This document shows positions 18,710 through 28,777 of a DNA stretch of 32,763 nucleotides, piece after piece. Every line of letters starts with the position of its first letter. The stretch's first letter is position 1. The notes beneath the pieces were generated by a model. That model was given only the letters and a program-made list of their open reading frames with translations, was not told the DNA's origin and made no database searches. Both the position numbers and the translations under genes were made by a program. The stretch is from a bacterium (GTDB lineage Bacteria; Patescibacteriota; Minisyncoccia; Phycocordibacterales; VMGT01): contig JAHFLU010000005.1 in NCBI GenBank assembly GCA_023264615.1, positions 1 through 32,763 on the forward strand, written 5' to 3'.

Positions 18710-19180
18710 ATGCGAAGAAAACTTAAAAAGAAAAATATTGTTCAACCCGACTATACATGGAACTCTGCAAAAGTTTCTAAACTGATCAATTATTGTATGG
18801 AAGAGGGGAAAAAGGCGACGGCAACCCGCATTGTCTACAGTGCGTTCGACATTATAAAGGAGAAAGCGAAGACGGAAAATCCTGTAGAAATATTTGAAAC
18901 GGCAATGAGAAACGTCGGGCCGCTTGTCGAGGTACGCTCGCGTCGCGTTGGCGGAGCGAACTATCAGGTGCCTCGTGAAGTGCGCCCTGAACGACGTCAG
19001 GCTCTGGCACTACGCTGGATTGTTGCCGCTGCCCGCAGCAAGAAGGGCGTCAAAATGCACAAGAAGCTTGCAGATGAAATTCTTGCAGCAAGCAACAACG
19101 AAGGCGAAGCAATAAAGAAGAAGGATGCGGTGCACAAGATGGCGGAGTCGAATAAGGCATTTGCTCATTTCTCCTGGTAA
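18710..19180 (+). CDS. rpsG: 30S ribosomal protein uS7
   Basis: [15 protein letters not shown]...[33 protein letters not shown]. Confidence 0.96.
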
Positions 19181-19190
19181 AAGAAAGATA

Positions 19191-21332
19191 ATGGAACGGG
19201 ATTATCCACTGGCAAAGGTTCGAAATATTGGCATTATCGCCCACATCGATGCGGGTAAGACGACGACATCCGAGCGTGTTCTCTACTACACGGGCGTTTC
19301 GCATAAAATTGGCGAGGTACACGAGGGGGAGGCAACGATGGACTGGATGGAGCAGGAGCGGGAACGCGGTATAACCATTACTTCTGCTGCTACGACTTGT
19401 TTTTGGGCCCCATCGGATGATTCAAAGAATGAGGCAAAAAAACACCGCATCAATATTATTGACACCCCCGGACATGTGGATTTTACGGCTGAAGTGGAAC
19501 GATCTCTTAAAGTGCTCGATGGTGGTGTGACGGTTTTTGACGGGGTTGCGGGTGTTGAACCGCAGTCGGAAACGGTGTGGCGGCAAGCGGACAAATACCA
19601 CGTGCCGCGAATCTGTTTCATTAATAAGCTTGATCGAACAGGAGCCTCGTTTGACTTTTCTTTTAAAACAATTGTTGATCGTTTAACGAAAAGTGCGGTA
19701 CGCATGCAGATTCCTATCGGCGAAGAGGGAAACCATATCGGCGTTGTCGATCTTCTTAAAGTGAAAGGCTATCTCTTTGAAGGGAATATGGGTAATGAAA
19801 TCAAAGAAATTGAGGTCCCTTCTAATCTTGCCGCAGATGCAAAGAAATATCGCGCGGAGCTCGTCGAGAAGATTGTTGAGAACGACGAGGTGATGATGAA
19901 TGACTACTTGGAAGGCAAAGAGCTCTCGATTGCGGATCTGAAAAAAACACTGCGTAAGGCGGTCATTGCGAATCAAATTGTTCCGGTATTTTGCGGCTCC
20001 GCGCTTAAAAATATCGGAGTACAGCTTGTTCTTGATGGCGTGATTGACTACCTTCCGTCACCGCTTGACATACCGCCCGTGAAAGGGACTGATCCGAAAA
20101 CAGGCGTGGAGATGGAGCGAAAAGCGGATGATAATGAGCCGCTCGCTGCGCTCGCGTTTAAGCTGCAGACTGACCCCTTTGTCGGCCAGCTGACGTATTT
20201 CCGTGTGTATTCGGGCACGGTCGAAAGCGGTTCATATATTTATAATTCTACAACAGGGGATAAGGAGCGGCTCGGCCGTATTCTTCGCATGCACGCTAAT
20301 CATCGGGAAGAGGTAAAGAAAGTATTTGCGGGAGAAATCGCTGCTGCTGTAGGACTTAAAAATACGAGGACATCTGATACGCTCTGTGATCCCGAGCACC
20401 CGATTATCCTTGAGAGGATCGTCTTTCCCGAGCCGGTCGTGTCCCTACGTATCGAGCCAAAAACAAAAGCGGATCAGGAAAAGATGGGCATTGCACTCAA
20501 TAAACTGGCATCTGAAGATCCAACATTTCGCGTGACATCTGATCCAGAAACTCTTGAAACGGTGATTTGGGGCATGGGTGAGTTGCACCTTGACATCATT
20601 GTTGACCGAATGAAGCGAGAATTTGGTGTCCTTGCAAATGTTGGGGCACCGCAGGTTGCATATCGCGAGACTATTACAGGCGAAGCAGAAGCGGAGTGTA
20701 AGTATATCAAGCAAACAGGTGGCCGCGGCCAGTACGGCCATGTGAAGCTTCGCGTAAAGCCGCTTGAAAAAATTACAGAAGACACAAAAATTGCAAAGAA
20801 TACGAAACGTTCAGAAGGATTTGAATTTATCAACAGTATTAAAGGAGGGCTCATTCCACAGGAGTTTATTCCGGCAGTTGAAAAAGGTGTTAAGGAGGCA
20901 ATGACTCGAGGAGTGCTCGCAGGGTACGCGATGGCTGATATTTCAGTCGATCTTTTCTATGGTTCATACCATGATGTTGACTCATCGGAAATTGCATTCA
21001 AAATCGCGGGTTCGCAAGCGTTTCAGGATGCAGCGAAGCGTGCACGCCCCGTTATTCTTGAACCAATCATGAGTGTAGAAGTCGTTACACCCGATCAGTT
21101 TATGGGTGACGTGACGGGGCATTTAAGTTCCAAGCGCGGACAGATTGAAGGGATGGAGAATCGCGGTATGGTACGTGTTATTAAAGCGAAGGTGCCGCTT
21201 TCGGAAATGTTTGGCTATATTACGACACTTCGTTCAATGACGGAAGGGCGTGCACAATACACAATGGAGTTTGACAGCTATGCTCCCGTTCCGCAAAATG
21301 TCGCGCAGACGATTATTGCGGCGAGGGTGTAA
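19191..21332 (+). CDS. fusA: Elongation factor G
   Basis: [57 protein letters not shown] track opens at 19125. Confidence 0.97.
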
Positions 21333-21349
21333 TCTCCTAAATTGATACG

Positions 21350-21400
21350 AAAATGCCGCAAAACTATATCTCGATAAGAGATATAGTTTTGCGGCATTTT
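21350..21400 (+). terminator. Strong terminator after fusA
   Basis: AAAATGCCGCAAAACTATATCTC-gataa-GAGATATAGTTTTGCGGCATTTT, 23 bp. Confidence 0.85.
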
Positions 21401-21450
21401 GTGGATAGTTCTCTGTCCAAGAGATGAAAGCGGTGGTACTGTATTGTAAT

Positions 21451-21831
21451 ATGGCGGACAAGAAAAAAATTCTGCTTGTGGAAGATGATAGTTTTATGAT
21501 GAAAATTCTTGCAGAGAAGTTAAGCAGGGGCGGCTTTGAGATACAAACAGCAGATGATGGGGAGGAGTGTTTGAAAAAGCTTGAAACATACAAGCCTGAT
21601 ATCATCCTGCTTGACATTATCATGCCTCGGATTGACGGCTACGAAGTACTGCACCGACTGAAAGAATCATCTGTGTGGAGAGATATTCCGGTTATCGCTC
21701 TCTCAAATCTGGGCCAAAAGGAAGAAATAGACCATGCGCTCGAACTTGGTGCGAAAGCTTTTATGGTGAAAGCGAATTTTACGACAGGGGAGATTATAGA
21801 AAACATCAATAAATTCTTGCAGGAAAAATAA
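21451..21831 (+). CDS. Single-domain (CheY/Rec-only) response regulator
   Basis: KKKILLVEDDSFMMKILAEKL...PDIILLDIIMPRIDGYEVLHRLKE...PVIALSNLGQKEE; no output domain. ORF track opens at 21424. Confidence 0.9.
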   Translation: MADKKKILLVEDDSFMMKILAEKLSRGGFEIQTADDGEECLKKLETYKPDIILLDIIMPRIDGYEVLHRLKESSVWRDIPVIALSNLGQKEEIDHALELGAKAFMVKANFTTGEIIENINKFLQEK

Positions 21832-21840
21832 GAAGACACT

Positions 21841-23049
21841 ATGGCAATAGCAGCAGGAGTTGGTACAAGCAAGAATAAGAATGCATCCCGGGCCGGGTAC
21901 GAAGCCGCTAAGGTTGCTTTTGATGCATGCGATGGATCTGGAGCGCGCTTTGTTATGGCTTTCGCATCACCGAAGTTTGACCAGCGAGAGCTTATCCAAG
22001 GGATTAACGAAGCAACGGGCGGAATACCCCTTGTTGGTTGTTCTACTGCAGGCGAAATTACGAACGAAGGATCAACGACTGGATCAGTTGCTGTGATGGT
22101 AATTTGTTCCGATACGATTGCATTTCATACAGGTCTTGGCAAGGATGTTAAAAAAGGGGCGCGTGATGCAGGACGGGCGGTGGCGAAAGAGGTGGAAAGA
22201 AAGGCAAAAGATACTGGTGCTGAACTTCAGGTGTTTGTTATGCTTCCGGATGTTCTTACAGGAAACGGTGCAGACTCTGTGCGCGGTGTACTTGACGTTC
22301 TTGGCGAGCATTTCCCTGTTGTCGGCGGTGCCCCGGGAGATGATTTTCTTTTCAAACAGACTTTTGAATATAAGGATAGCGAAGTTACATCCGGTGCGAT
22401 TGGAGGTGTTGGCCTTTCGGGAAAGTTTTCTGTTGGCATTGGTGTTCGGCACGGCTGGATGCCCATTGGTCTTCCGATGAAAGTGACAAAATCAGAAGGG
22501 GCAGTGCTCTATATGCTCGACGACAAACCGGCGATCAAAATATATGAAGATTATTTTGGATCGCAGGCGGCAGAACTTCGAAAAGAGCCGCTTGCACGCA
22601 TGGCGATCACGTATCCAATCGGTCTTAAAATTCCCGACTACGATGACGAATATCTTATTCGCGATCCCATTACTGTTGATGATCAAGGGGCGATTACCTG
22701 CGCGGCAGAGATACCCGAAGGGGCAGAAGTGCGCCTCATGATCGGCAGCAAAGAAAAAGCAATTGATGCGGCGAAAGAGGCGGCACGCCATGTGATGAGT
22801 GCATTTGACGATCATGCTCGGCCAAAGTTTGTTTTTATGTTTAATTGCATTGCGCGTGAAAAACTCTATGCACAGGATGCAAACGAAGAAATTGAGGCAG
22901 TTCTCAATATCATTGGTCGAGATACGCCGCTTATCGGTTTCTATACCTATGGCGAGCAGGCGCCACTTGGTGGCGAATTCAAAAATCGTGCACAATGCAA
23001 TACTCGCTTTTATAATGAAACGATGGTGCTCTTTGGGGTCGGCGAGTAA
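21841..23049 (+). CDS. FIST-domain (FIST N + FIST C) sensory protein
   Basis: FVMAFASPKFDQRELIQGINEATGGIPLVGCSTAGEIT; FVMLPDVLTGNGADSVRGVLDVLGEHFPVVGGAPGDDF; FNCIARE...IGFYTYGEQAP. Confidence 0.85.
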   Translation: MAIAAGVGTSKNKNASRAGYEAAKVAFDACDGSGARFVMAFASPKFDQRELIQGINEATGGIPLVGCSTAGEITNEGSTTGSVAVMVICSDTIAFHTGLGKDVKKGARDAGRAVAKEVERKAKDTGAELQVFVMLPDVLTGNGADSVRGVLDVLGEHFPVVGGAPGDDFLFKQTFEYKDSEVTSGAIGGVGLSGKFSVGIGVRHGWMPIGLPMKVTKSEGAVLYMLDDKPAIKIYEDYFGSQAAELRKEPLARMAITYPIGLKIPDYDDEYLIRDPITVDDQGAITCAAEIPEGAEVRLMIGSKEKAIDAAKEAARHVMSAFDDHARPKFVFMFNCIAREKLYAQDANEEIEAVLNIIGRDTPLIGFYTYGEQAPLGGEFKNRAQCNTRFYNETMVLFGVGE

Positions 23050-23091
23050 CAGCCTTTTGCTGTAGACTGAACGTTGTATGTTTACTGGCGT

Positions 23092-24084
23092 ATGAAGAAG
23101 TTTCTTTTTTTGTTTACTGTTCTCGTGTTTATTACTGTTCTCCTGTTTTTGTATAGGCAGCAGATGGTAGTTCATATGTTGCGGACATACCGTGTGGGAA
23201 TCCCGAAACCGCTTGCATCGCTTGTGCCGGCATTCGAGGGGTTTAAGAGAGGTATGCGTGAGCGGGGATATGAAGAGGGAAGAAATATTTCGTACACGAT
23301 TATCGAAGAGGGGGCGAATGAAGCTGAAACAAAAGAAAACCTTGCTACGTTTGTTCATACACGGCCGGATCTTATCTATACGCTTGGCGTGAATGCATCT
23401 CGGGACGCCAAAGCAATTACGGGGACCATTGCACCCGATCTTCCCGTACTTTTTGCGGTTGTTTCAGATCCGGTTGGCAACGGACTTGTTGCCGATTTGC
23501 AGAGTTCGGGGAATAACCTCACGGGTGTTGCTGCCGGCAGCGATATTATTGCTGCAAAACGTGTTGAGCTCTTTCTGGAACTTGTACCAGGCACGAAGCG
23601 AATCATTTTCCCGTGGAATAATGCATTAACGACAGGCATCGAGCATGTGCGTGAAGTTGTTGCGGCAATGCAGGGTATCGAGCTTGTAGAGCGGGAAGTA
23701 CGAAATGAAGCTGAAATAGATGCATATCTGTCCACATTTGTTTCGCAGCCGGGCGATGCGCTTTTCCGGGCGCCGGATAGTATCGTTGCACGTCGCGTGA
23801 AAGAGCTCTCTTTGTGGGCGATTGAGCACAAAGTGCCGATGGTGGGCACAAACTATGATGATGCAGTTCTTGGGGCTCTTGCGAGCTACGGGGCTAACTT
23901 TGAGCAGATTGGTATACAATCGGCGGAGTTTGCCGACCGTATTCTTAAAGGCAGCAAACCGAAAGACTTACCAGTGACGTATCCGGCGCGTTATGAATTC
24001 GTGCTGAATACGGAGACGGCAGAAAAACTAGACATGACGTTTGGACCGGATGCACTAGTCAATGTTGATAAATATGTTCCCTAG
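23092..24084 (+). CDS. ABC_sub_bind (TrpX/DUF534-like) substrate-binding protein with N-terminal TM/signal
   Basis: RVGIPKPLASLVPAFEGFKRGMRERGYEEGRNISYTIIEEGAN...PDLIYTLGVNASRDAKAITGTIAPDLPVLFAVVSDPVGNGLV...NNLTGVAAG. ORF track opens at 23074. Confidence 0.85.
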   Translation: MKKFLFLFTVLVFITVLLFLYRQQMVVHMLRTYRVGIPKPLASLVPAFEGFKRGMRERGYEEGRNISYTIIEEGANEAETKENLATFVHTRPDLIYTLGVNASRDAKAITGTIAPDLPVLFAVVSDPVGNGLVADLQSSGNNLTGVAAGSDIIAAKRVELFLELVPGTKRIIFPWNNALTTGIEHVREVVAAMQGIELVEREVRNEAEIDAYLSTFVSQPGDALFRAPDSIVARRVKELSLWAIEHKVPMVGTNYDDAVLGALASYGANFEQIGIQSAEFADRILKGSKPKDLPVTYPARYEFVLNTETAEKLDMTFGPDALVNVDKYVP

Positions 24085-25810
24085 AGAGCACAAGGAATCA
24101 GGGCGACTATTTGCATCAATGCGGGAATACAGCGGGCTTTTTTTTGGGATTCTTTTGCTTTTTGTTTTTACCATACTGTGGTTTGTTCCAACAGCCTTGA
24201 CAATCCGAAAATCGGCATCAACCCTCGCGCGCGAGAGTGCCCGTCGTGTAGGCTCAAATATTGAGTCAACGATGCACCGTAGTGCGGATGCGATTGCTTC
24301 CGCCGCAGAAGAAGTTGGCATAACACCCGACCGCTATGAATTTATTCTCAAACGATTGCTTGGAAGCGAAGACGGACTCCAGAGCGTTTCTCTGATTGGG
24401 ATGGATGGAAGTGAAATGTTTCATTTGGATCGCATTGCCGTACATAAGGAAAACATGCCGCTTCCGCAGCCTGCGGTTGCAGTTGTTAGAAATGCGCTTG
24501 CGGGCGAAGCGGGGATTGGGGAAATATTTTTCTCCGACATTCTTGAACCGAGAACATATCTTGCCGCTCCGGTTCGTACGATTGGCAAGGTGAAAGGAGT
24601 AATTGTGGGTGAGTTTAACCTTCGGCCGCTTATATCGTTTTTGCAGGATACATCGCTTCCGGAAGGGCATATATATGTTGTCGACAAAAATGGCTTTCAG
24701 ATACTCCATCCGGAACTTTCTGAATTCTTGCGCCATCCGAACTATTTGTCGCGTGGAATTGTACAGAAAGTAATTACTGAACGCAGGGTTATGGACGGTC
24801 TCGGTGCCCTTGATGGATACAAGAATGATAACGGGGTTACGGTTTTTGCTGTGGGTATGCCACTTGATGTCGGCGGATGGAGTATTTTTACAGAACAGCC
24901 GCAAAGTATCGCTTTTGCGAGTGTATGGCAGACTCTTTTTATTGCTTTAGGTATCATCGTTTTCGGAGCACTTGCTCTGATTCTCCTTTTTCGGAACCAC
25001 CGTTTTCTTGTTGGCTCGAATATCAAACTGAAGGAAATGCTTGTTGACCTTGATAATTCTGGTAAAATGCTTGTCCGGCGGGATCTCGATTTGTCGCGTG
25101 CGAATGCTCGTCTTTTGGAACTTGATGACATGAAGTCGCAGTTCGTCTCGACGGCTGCGCACCAGCTGCGTACACCACTTACGGTGCTTAAGTGGTCGCT
25201 CAACGAACTTTTGGAGGGGGATTTTGGATCGCTGAAAAAGAACCAGAAAGAATTACTTACCGATGTTGTGGCTGCGAACAAGCGCCTGATTAATCTCGTT
25301 AATGATCTTCTTGATATAGCACGACTGGAGGATGATCAGGGCGGGATGAAGATGGAACGGCAAGATATTGCTACCGTGATGAAAAATGTGATTAGCCAAT
25401 TTCAAAAGGTGCTGAAAGAAAAGAATATCAAGTTTTCTTTTGAGCATCCGCGTGATTCTCTCTATGTTGTTTTAGATAAAGAAAAGATGGGTATCGCTCT
25501 GTATAACCTTATCGACAATGCGATAAAATATACATTACCAAAAGGATCGATCTTGGTTACTCTCGTTGGCGTAGACAAAGAAATTCATATTTCGGTTAAG
25601 GATACAGGGATTGGTATTCCCGAGGAAGAGAAAGAACGGATATTCAGCAAATTTTTCAGGGCGCACAATGCCATGCTCATGGAAACGTATGGTTCAGGTC
25701 TGGGACTTTCAGTTGTGAAAGATATAGCAGAAAAGCACCACGGCTCTATCGCATTCAGGAAAAATGAAGGAAGCGGAAGCACTTTTATACTGACAGTACC
25801 CGCGGCGTAG
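24074..25810 (+). CDS. Sensor histidine kinase with extracytoplasmic dCache-like domain, HisKA and HATPase_c
   Basis: Two TMs flank the sensor region; KSQFVSTAAHQLRTPLTVLKWSLNEL (H-box), NLIDNAIKYT (N), DTGIGIPEEEKERIFSKFFRA (G1/F), GSGLGLSVVK (G2). Overlaps the preceding CDS. Confidence 0.92.
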   Translation: MFPREHKESGRLFASMREYSGLFFGILLLFVFTILWFVPTALTIRKSASTLARESARRVGSNIESTMHRSADAIASAAEEVGITPDRYEFILKRLLGSEDGLQSVSLIGMDGSEMFHLDRIAVHKENMPLPQPAVAVVRNALAGEAGIGEIFFSDILEPRTYLAAPVRTIGKVKGVIVGEFNLRPLISFLQDTSLPEGHIYVVDKNGFQILHPELSEFLRHPNYLSRGIVQKVITERRVMDGLGALDGYKNDNGVTVFAVGMPLDVGGWSIFTEQPQSIAFASVWQTLFIALGIIVFGALALILLFRNHRFLVGSNIKLKEMLVDLDNSGKMLVRRDLDLSRANARLLELDDMKSQFVSTAAHQLRTPLTVLKWSLNELLEGDFGSLKKNQKELLTDVVAANKRLINLVNDLLDIARLEDDQGGMKMERQDIATVMKNVISQFQKVLKEKNIKFSFEHPRDSLYVVLDKEKMGIALYNLIDNAIKYTLPKGSILVTLVGVDKEIHISVKDTGIGIPEEEKERIFSKFFRAHNAMLMETYGSGLGLSVVKDIAEKHHGSIAFRKNEGSGSTFILTVPAA

Positions 25811-25830
25811 GTTTTTAATTGCGTATTCCG

Positions 25831-26082
25831 ATGATTAAAAAAGCAACACTCCACCCTTCCCGCATTGGCTGCCCTTCGCTTCCCGGAACGATGAAAGGAA
25901 TTGTTATGTCGATAGGCGGAGTTAAGGATGTCGCCATTGTATATGAGGAGCGTTCGCTTTTGGTGACGTTTGATGATGCGGCGACCTCGGTTGAAGCGAT
26001 TGTTAAGAAAATTGGGGAAGAGACAGGAATTGCAATGGGTAGCGACATACGTGGAGGAGAGGATAGGGGAGCGACATGCTAA
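25831..26082 (+). CDS. HMA-like (heavy-metal-associated fold) small protein lacking CxxC
   Basis: RIGCPSLPGTMKGIVMSIGGVKDVAIVYEERSLLVTFDDAATSVEAIVKKIGEETG resembles HMA pattern. ORF track start 25819. Confidence 0.5.
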   Translation: MIKKATLHPSRIGCPSLPGTMKGIVMSIGGVKDVAIVYEERSLLVTFDDAATSVEAIVKKIGEETGIAMGSDIRGGEDRGATC

Positions 26083-26111
26083 CAAAAGTGGCTACATGCA
26101 AGAAAAAAAGA

Positions 26112-26139
26112 GCGGGCCCGTTGCAGATAACGGGCCCGC
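26112..26139. terminator. Bidirectional hairpin terminator
   Basis: GCGGGCCCGTT-gcagat-AACGGGCCCGC. Confidence 0.75.
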
Positions 26140-26159
26140 ATGCTGCGCGCGCGGGAATA

Positions 26160-26573
26160 CTATTCGATACCCGTCATATTGAGAACTCCGCCAGCCATGC
26201 GGAATGCAGTTTTGATGATCTCTGCTATGAGCTCGTCCGGTGTATCGCTGCCGTATCCATCGAGAGGAACGCCGTTAAAGTTAAACCCAGTTTCAGAAAC
26301 GATCTTTTGAGAATATGCGGCGAGCAGTGTCGGAATGTCAGTGACTGACAAGTGCTCGATGTCATATTGCAGACGCTGTCCTGCTTCACCATAGTATAAG
26401 TCATGCAGACGGATGCCCCGCTGTGCGAGAGCGACGGGGTCAATATCGGAGTGTTCATAGAGTTCGAGCGCAAGATCGTGTTTTCCATTTGCCGCAAGAA
26501 AATTTGCTTGTGTTCGAGCGTATTGCTTAATTGGTACGACTAACTTCGCGCGGTCAAGGGGTGACAGAGCCAT
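26160..26573 (-). CDS. Hypothetical protein
   Basis: 139 aa ORF; SD AAGGAGA upstream of MALSPLDR. Confidence 0.55.
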   Translation of the reverse strand: MALSPLDRAKLVVPIKQYARTQANFLAANGKHDLALELYEHSDIDPVALAQRGIRLHDLYYGEAGQRLQYDIEHLSVTDIPTLLAAYSQKIVSETGFNFNGVPLDGYGSDTPDELIAEIIKTAFRMAGGVLNMTGIE

Positions 26574-26739
26574 TAGCAAGTCTCCTTTTGCGCTTGCTGT
26601 GGTTGTTTAAGGCGAATGATCCGCACAGAAATTTATCACGCGTATACGTGTGTGTCAAGACACTCGATCGCTGTTTATGTGGTTAGAAGTAGCAGACAAA
26701 ACCTTATTGCGGCGGTCGAACAGTCCTTGAAAGGAAAGT

Positions 26740-27303
26740 ATGTTTCCTATCATTTGTGTCGGTGGCCCGACGGGCGCTGGCAAAGACACGATTGTGACGG
26801 AATTTCTGCAGAAGTATCCGAAGTATATCCGTATACCGAGGACAACAACTCGTGCGCCCCGCCCGCATGAAATTTCCGGCATTCATTACTACTTTCTCGA
26901 AGAAGCAATCTTTGATGCAGATGTAAAGAATGGCGTCATTTGTTCTATTGATCATTTCTGCGGCGCAAAGTATGGCATTGATATGCACAAGATCGAGAAG
27001 GCTGTAAGCAACGGCAGACATATCATTGGTGTTTTTGGCGTTTGCGCATACGGGTTGCGGGCAGCGTATGCACACGGCGCACTGCTCATATACATTGCCG
27101 CACCACTCGATCTCTTGGAAGAGCGCCTTGCCTTGCGAGGAGATCCTCCGGCGGAAATTAAGGAACGTATTGTTGCTGCGAAGCAGCAGCTTCAGGACGA
27201 GCCTTCCCAGTTTGACTATGTAATCGAAAATATACAATCGATTACCTGGGCTGTAGATGAGCTTTTTCGGGTTATTTCTTTTGCAACCAGTTTCTTTCCG
27301 TAG
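26740..27303 (+). CDS. Guanylate kinase-like protein
   Basis: ICVGGPTGAGKDTIVTEFLQKYPKYIRIPRTTTRAPRPHEISGIHYYFLEE; AKYGIDMHKIEKAVSNGRHIIGVFG. Confidence 0.75.
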   Translation: MFPIICVGGPTGAGKDTIVTEFLQKYPKYIRIPRTTTRAPRPHEISGIHYYFLEEAIFDADVKNGVICSIDHFCGAKYGIDMHKIEKAVSNGRHIIGVFGVCAYGLRAAYAHGALLIYIAAPLDLLEERLALRGDPPAEIKERIVAAKQQLQDEPSQFDYVIENIQSITWAVDELFRVISFATSFFP

Positions 27304-27320
27304 GCCTCTCGGGAGTCACA

Positions 27321-27352
27321 AAAACCCTGTTCGTCGTTACGAACAGGGTTTT
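27321..27352. terminator. Hairpin terminator
   Basis: AAAACCCTGTTCGT-cgtt-ACGAACAGGGTTTT. Confidence 0.8.
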
Positions 27353-27374
27353 GTTCGATTGCGCACCCAAAAGA

Positions 27375-27402
27375 TTGACTATTTTCAGCTATTTGTTAGT
27401 AT
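27375..27402 (+). promoter_or_regulatory. Putative tuf promoter
   Basis: TTGACT (27375-27380), 16 nt, TAGTAT (27397-27402) preceded by TGT; implies a ~180 nt leader. Confidence 0.5.
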
Positions 27403-27586
27403 TCCTTGTACCGCATGTCAATGCGTTTTTATGCATGAAAACTCCACAGACGGGCGTTATATCCGCGTCCCTGTCGGGGATTATTATTAGGATAGATGAT
27501 ATTGTGTGATGTAGTTATGAAAGTTGAGCCATTCTCGTGCGCTCAATCTTCGTAAGTACGGAATGCAGTCGTTAATACTAACTACT

Positions 27587-28777
27587 ATGGTAGATTTTGA
27601 CAGATCAAAGCCGCATGTAAACGTGGGAACAATCGGCCACGTTGACCACGGCAAGACAACGCTTACCGCAGCAATTTTGCATACGCTTAATCTTGCGGGT
27701 AAGGAAGTAAAACTGCGCCGCGTCGACGAAATCGACAATGCGCCAGAAGAGCGGGCGCGAGGAATCACAATCGCTCTTTCCCACAACGAGTACTCGACAG
27801 ATGCCCGCCACTATGCGCACATCGATGCGCCCGGCCATGCGGACTACATCAAGAACATGATTACGGGAGCAGCGCAGATGGATGGTGCGATTATTGTTGT
27901 TGCTGCAACAGACGGTGTGATGCCACAGACGCGAGAACACATCCTTTTGGCAAAGCAGGTGGGTGTACCGAAAATCGTTGTCTTTCTCAACAAAGTAGAT
28001 ATGGTTGACGATCCTGATCTCATTGACCTTGTGGAGGAGGAAGTGCGCGAACTGCTCACGAAGTACAATTTTGACGGTGCAAACGCTCCGGTCATCCGCG
28101 GCTCTGCACTGAAGGCTCTCGAGGCTAAATCCGTGGACGACGAATGGGCAAAGAAGATTCTTGAGCTTACGAATGCACTTGATACATATATTCCGGTTCC
28201 GGAACGTGCCGTTGATGCGCCATTTCTCATGCCCGTAGAAGACATTTTCTCGATTGAAGGCCGTGGTACTGTGGTGACTGGCCGTATCGAACGTGGGAAG
28301 GTCAAAGTTGGTGAAGAAATCGAAATTGTCGGGATGAAGCCAACGGCAAAGACTATTGTGACGGGTATTGAAATGTTCAACAAGTCGCTTCAGGAAGGAA
28401 TCGCAGGTGATAATGCAGGTATTCTTCTGCGCGGTGTGAAAAAGGAAGATGTTCATCGTGGCCAGGTGCTTGCGAAGCCTGCATCAGTAACACCGCACAC
28501 GGACTTTGAGGCTGAAGTATATGTTTTGAGCAAAGAAGAAGGAGGCCGCCATACGCCGTTCTTTAACGGCTATAAGCCGCAGTTTTACATTCGTACAACA
28601 GATGTGACGGGCGAGGCGACGCTTCCTGAAGGTACGGAAATGGTGATGCCGGGAGATACTGTGAAGCTTAAGATTAAACTTATCGCACCTGTTGCACTTG
28701 AGGAAAAGCAGCGCTTTGCTATCCGCGAAGGAGGTAAGACTGTTGGTGCAGGTGTTGTAACGCAGATCTTCGCATAA
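27587..28777 (+). CDS. tuf: Elongation factor Tu
   Basis: [77 protein letters not shown] track opens at 27524. Confidence 0.97.

Follow-up and report, generated by a model that had tools for sequence, protein, structure and literature searches.

From the anatomy of its parts, the five-gene cassette described here is best read as a FIST kinase system of the NosP-NosK kind, with an added outside input resembling that of LuxP-LuxQ. Comparison of its relatives points to an inherited unit of receiver (RR), FIST protein and histidine kinase (HK), often with a small HMA-like protein, and a solute-binding protein (SBP) of family PF04392 appears to be the exchangeable part of the cassette. We consider it probable that these genes encode a multi-input two-component system, in which a FIST-kinase core takes SBP input at the dCache domain of the kinase and the receiver acts by contact. 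Some elements of the design have counterparts in other systems; what is new is the combination of a swappable outside sensor with a private HMA-like protein.

The window, the whole 32,763-nt stretch of DNA analysed, belongs to a 1.03 Mb assembly. As a preliminary description had proposed, the five genes all lie on the forward strand (Table 1), between fusA upstream and tuf downstream. The spacings given there also hold, with 9 nt between RR and FIST, 42 nt between FIST and SBP, and an overlap of SBP and HK, which measures 23 nt; HK and HMA are 8 nt apart. Pfam supports the proposed identities, with a sub-threshold match in the case of the HMA-like protein, whose homologues begin at the likely start given in Table 1. 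Both of the strong hairpins said to bound the cassette are present. The T-run of the downstream one is on the minus strand, so that it seems to terminate genes of that strand and not the cassette. Rfam and tRNA searches of the window gave no matches. The fusA and tuf genes, usually adjacent, are separated by signalling genes in the window (19125-28777) and at locus L023. Between the cassette and tuf, the window also holds a 139-aa ORF without Pfam match (26160-26579, minus strand) and a divergent guanylate-kinase-like gene (26740-27303, plus strand); in the congener there is no room for either.

Table 1. Genes of the cassette and flanking hairpins, in window coordinates.
Feature	Position	Strand	Description
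RR	21451..21831	+	single-receiver response regulator, 126 aa; Response_reg 2e-25
FIST-FIST_C protein	21841..23049	+	402 aa; FIST 1e-44, FIST_C 3e-37
SBP, PF04392 (TrpX-type)	23092..24084	+	330 aa; ABC_sub_bind 2e-42
Sensor histidine kinase (HK)	24062..25810	+	dCache_1 46.0 bits (cut-off 45), HisKA, HATPase_c
HMA-like protein	25819..26082	+	HMA 21.9 bits (cut-off 24.8); likely start ATG 25831
Hairpin, 20-pair stem	21353..21397	.	between fusA and cassette; probable terminator
Strong hairpin	26112..26139	-	T-run on minus strand

According to Pfam, the response regulator comprises a Response_reg domain alone, which agrees with the earlier statement that the only cognate regulator lacks an output domain. 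Its acidic pocket, phospho-acceptor Asp, Ser and Lys are all present by inspection, and it is 81% identical to the congener's RR and 63% to that of a Kaiserbacteria locus. Relatives of the cassette usually have two receiver domains. The FIST protein is cytoplasmic, with no transmembrane (TM) segment. Its GVRHGW motif is conserved in the lineage, with the His kept in most relatives, and a search of its sequence against the PDB gave no match. A single N-terminal helix anchors the SBP in the membrane; the protein lacks a lipobox Cys and matches the NCBIfam TrpX model; solved relatives in PF04392 are 3lkv, 6hni and 3lft. The kinase comprises a TM helix (24-42), a dCache domain (48-277) and a second TM helix (292-310), followed by HisKA and HATPase_c. 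Eleven HisKA kinases are encoded in the window genome, which is kinase-rich for the group; five of the 11 matches lie on a single contig (G000:C55).

The preliminary description had looked to co-occurrence in related genomes, and the order RR-FIST-SBP-HK(-HMA) does recur in several families of the class. RR-FIST-SBP-HK is found in the window and at L023, L072, L081 (with a decayed SBP), L085, L089 and L093, and FIST-SBP-HK at L073 and L095. The congener G001 reads fusA-[274-aa gene]-RR-RR-FIST-SBP-HK-HMA-tuf, the 274-aa gene being nucleotidyltransferase-like by inspection. The family member G002 carries RR-FIST-HK on the opposite strand between fusA and tuf (L036) and SBP-HK-HMA on a separate contig, and FIST is thus not always co-encoded. 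Among 384 sampled genomes of the class, mostly MAGs, PF04392 occurs in 34 and FIST in 36; they occur together in 12, against about 3 expected (Fisher p = 1e-5). When neighbourhoods were fetched and scored, a kinase lay within three genes in the same run at 33/46 SBP loci and 43/51 FIST loci. Both adjacencies exceed chance, which predicts about 3% (5 kinases per genome) to 8% (12 kinases per genome) if genomes are taken to hold about 900 genes each and the loci to be independent. The 13 SBP loci without a kinase in that range include four at contig ends, as well as others, such as L025 and L080, where a kinase lies further along. Neighbour genes were called by our own ORF selection and labelled with profiles, and their start sites are therefore rough.

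A common layout of SBP loci in the class begins with one to four SBPs, followed in turn by a dCache kinase and a two-receiver protein; some such loci continue into NMT1-like SBPs and another dCache protein. At L070 (12560-16782), L067 and L088, two to three NMT1-like SBPs lie behind the SBP-kinase-receiver set, together with a dCache membrane protein that lacks a kinase part. Three to four tandem PF04392 genes precede a single dCache kinase and a protein with two receivers at L068, L091, L096, L098 and L102; such arrays could possibly serve as a multi-ligand sensor. At L030 (9182-11026) the SBP is fused behind a PorA-like (PF11271) domain in a 614-aa protein, and the protein at L100 (1151-3064) is of similar length (637 aa). 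The SBP gene is split at L079 (8975-9842), and at L081 (4668-4850) it is decayed with the rest of the cassette intact.

A tree of 71 kinase cores contains one clade of 22 (support 99/100) that takes in the nine FIST+SBP kinases without exception and all cassette kinases accompanied by an HMA-like gene, together with FIST kinases that have no SBP. The FIST tree has a matching clade of 21 (support 97/96), made up of 18 loci from the kinase clade plus L033, L097 and L152, short contig stretches on which no kinase was found beside FIST. At L085 and L158 the kinases fall inside the kinase clade and the FIST proteins outside the FIST clade, and over about 20 loci the two trees largely agree. Within the kinase tree, no fewer than five changes are required to account for the FIST+SBP label. 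Cassette SBPs fall on three separate branches of the SBP tree, which argues for repeated exchange of the outside sensor. Thus, since the FIST and kinase trees match and the SBP branches are scattered, FIST and kinase mostly travel together while the SBP is exchanged. The slot between FIST and kinase is empty at L163, L165, L166 and L170-L173; elsewhere it is occupied by an anchored SBP_bac_8 protein, an unrelated SBP (L133), an anchored protein with a weak, Cache-like dCache match (L162) or a 5TMR-LYT protein (L149). FIST genes followed by a gene for an ATP-binding or PAS protein also occur on plasmids in other phyla, and the pairing is therefore not special to Patescibacteria. The papers on sensing in these bacteria that were covered by a term search make no mention of FIST, and no text was found that pairs ABC_sub_bind with a histidine kinase.

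The small protein encoded behind the kinase carries the motif HPSRIGCPSLPGTMKG, in which CxxC is lost, and a C-terminal Cys. The family motif is HPSRIGCPSxPGTMKG, the CxxC loop being reduced to GCPSxP with one Cys, and the C-terminal Cys is invariant in nine aligned sequences. Its AF2 model (pLDDT 78) predicts a ferredoxin-like HMA fold, for which the best Foldseek match is MerP (1osd; TM 0.87 by target length, rmsd 1.3). In a profile search of 286 genomes, five matches scored 156-166 bits and the window protein 136, all in cassettes, and a divergent, truncated cassette copy scored 74. The next-best match reached 34 bits; from there down the matches are short HMA-type proteins or HMA stretches within long proteins, the latter probably P-type ATPases judging from their length. 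An ordinary copper chaperone was rejected because CxxC is lost and the gap in score to true HMA domains is sharp (136-166 against 34 bits or less in the sample of the class, the truncated copy aside). A collection of 84,980 species gave 13 credible loci, all directly behind a kinase that itself lies behind a FIST gene, and all from Patescibacteria or from MAGs named only 'bacterium'; a Verrucomicrobia match (L174) was discarded as a 16-residue chance match. The gene is missing from the FIST-SBP-HK loci L085, L093 and L095. By these comparisons the HMA-like protein forms a distinct private family, found only directly behind this kinase lineage; perhaps, as a guess, it is a thiol- or metal-responsive modulator.

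The cassette might instead consist of two independent two-component modules that are merely neighbours, namely a FIST-RR pair served by a kinase elsewhere and an SBP-kinase-HMA module. In favour of this, G002 does encode both parts separately (L026, L036, L033), and the window genome has its 11 HisKA kinases. The arrangement seems improbable, as this kinase lineage is coupled to FIST and follows the same phylogeny whether or not an SBP is present, and RR-FIST-HK-HMA runs with 4-nt overlaps and no SBP at L163, L170 and L172. A scavenging or transport role, in which the SBP works through a non-canonical or shared permease and its adjacency to the kinase reflects co-regulated uptake, would fit the habit of Patescibacteria to scavenge from their neighbours. 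It would also fit the PF04392 proteins of known function, which are transporter subunits, and the TrpX match of the window SBP. Against it, PF02653, which we take to be the permease family expected to partner TrpX-type SBPs, was found above cut-off in none of the 38 SBP-bearing genomes searched, the window genome having only a 20-bit fragment that stays under the cut-off and the 37 others none; it was found in 12 of 14 control genomes. A role in a PF02653-type ABC importer was rejected on account of this absence, and the earlier description of the SBP as an orphan is to that extent borne out. No ABC genes adjoin the SBP in the window. Across the class SBPs adjoin dCache kinases or dCache membrane proteins, and in the cassette the SBP gene sits between two signalling genes, in a slot filled elsewhere by other sensors. 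We thus regard uptake as quite improbable and favour an SBP that informs the kinase.

The output step is a separate matter. The preliminary description had suggested that signalling ends in protein contact, for example with pili, and this agrees with five SBP or FIST kinase loci in which pilB follows the receiver gene on the same strand (L022, L030, L079, L133 and L145, the last with a 61-aa ORF in between); beside the window cassette itself there is no pilB. About 0.5 such loci would be expected, given 5 T2SSE genes in 900. In four of the five, Pfam confirms T2SSE with MshEN, and the pilB of L145, called by our own profile, coincides with a T2SSE match. Four of the five lie outside the window's kinase clade; the fifth, L133, belongs to it and reads RR2-FIST-SBP_bac_8-HK-HMA-RR-pilB-pilC. 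In family f123 a divergent pilB also lies near SBP arrays, but on the other strand, and it was for this reason left out of the operon evidence. This adjacency, which includes a locus of the same kinase clade, supports type IV pili as the output and favours direct action. The lone receiver might also hand its phosphate to a regulator elsewhere, giving a transcriptional or second-messenger output. A receiver without output domain would suit such a relay, as would the MshEN domains of the linked PilB proteins, since MshEN domains bind c-di-GMP in other bacteria. The NosP systems of Proteobacteria end in c-di-GMP enzymes (PMC12570481, PMC8846402). The cassettes examined showed no regulator with an output domain, and we hold a relay of this kind to be rather unlikely.

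For the window system we infer a ligand, SBP docking, phosphotransfer and a pilus output, as follows. The anchored SBP, with no role in transport, would sense a small molecule outside the cell and dock on the dCache domain of the kinase, in the manner of LuxP with LuxQ and TorT with TorS. In the cytoplasm, the FIST protein may influence the kinase encoded next to it, much as NosP does NosK/NahK. The inherited core would also include one or two stand-alone receiver domains and, often, the HMA-fold protein encoded directly behind the kinase. Once phosphorylated, the receiver, which has no DNA-binding output, would act by protein contact, most likely on the type IV pilus machinery. The split sensor proposed earlier gains from comparison: SBP-dCache kinase pairs without FIST and FIST-kinase pairs without SBP both exist, and the two are joined in the window and in other families, with the PF02653 permease absent. 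More tentatively, the FIST-kinase-receiver(-HMA) core could be a plug-in platform of Patescibacteria into which unrelated sensors of the outside are swapped (binding proteins of PF04392 and SBP_bac_8, Cache proteins and 5TMR proteins), and whose kinase integrates an outside ligand with FIST and HMA cues and sets type IV pilus activity toward host cells.

Tiny, probably symbiotic bacteria of this kind have few kinases (PMC10805038). A conserved unit in which ligand-binding proteins of the outside are tied to a kinase and, through neighbouring genes, to pili provides concrete proteins for testing, and the cassette may bear on partner sensing in such probably host-dependent cells. It suggests that orphan binding proteins in these genomes are sensors and not transporters, and the private HMA-fold family is a candidate kinase partner.

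Among known systems, the closest to the core is the NosP-NosK-NosR operon, which includes a receiver protein and in which control of the kinase by the FIST protein is proven biochemically (PMC12570481). As in NosP-NosK/NahK-NosR/NarR, a FIST-FIST_C gene adjoins genes for a HisKA kinase and for a receiver protein, and the joint inheritance of FIST and kinase expected of such a system shows here in the 43/51 FIST loci and the largely matching trees. The window FIST protein has both FIST domains but scores far below the equivalog cut-off of the NCBIfam NosP model NF041558 (92.2 against 450 bits). Unlike NosK, the window kinase has an extracytoplasmic dCache domain and an SBP as putative partner; in addition, the receiver lacks a c-di-GMP domain, and an HMA-like gene follows the kinase. 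Binding proteins activate kinases through the kinases' sensor domains, LuxP-LuxQ and TorT-TorS being solved pairs (PMC6321045). These share with the window a binding protein beside a transmembrane kinase with an extracytoplasmic sensor domain and no dedicated transporter. The window SBP differs from the LuxP and TorT families in belonging to PF04392 and in its N-terminal anchor helix, and the kinase differs from LuxQ and TorS in being non-hybrid and tied to FIST as well. TrpX-type ABC SBPs are of the same family, PF04392, but the window SBP is coupled to a kinase, with no ABC genes adjacent and no PF02653 found in the genome. The HMA metallochaperones MerP and CopZ share the predicted fold of the HMA-like protein, which is set apart from them by its single Cys in GCPSxP, its extra C-terminal Cys, its score below the Pfam cut-off and its place solely behind this kinase lineage. 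By its anatomy, the window system thus resembles a merger of the NosP-NosK and LuxP-LuxQ/TorT-TorS types.
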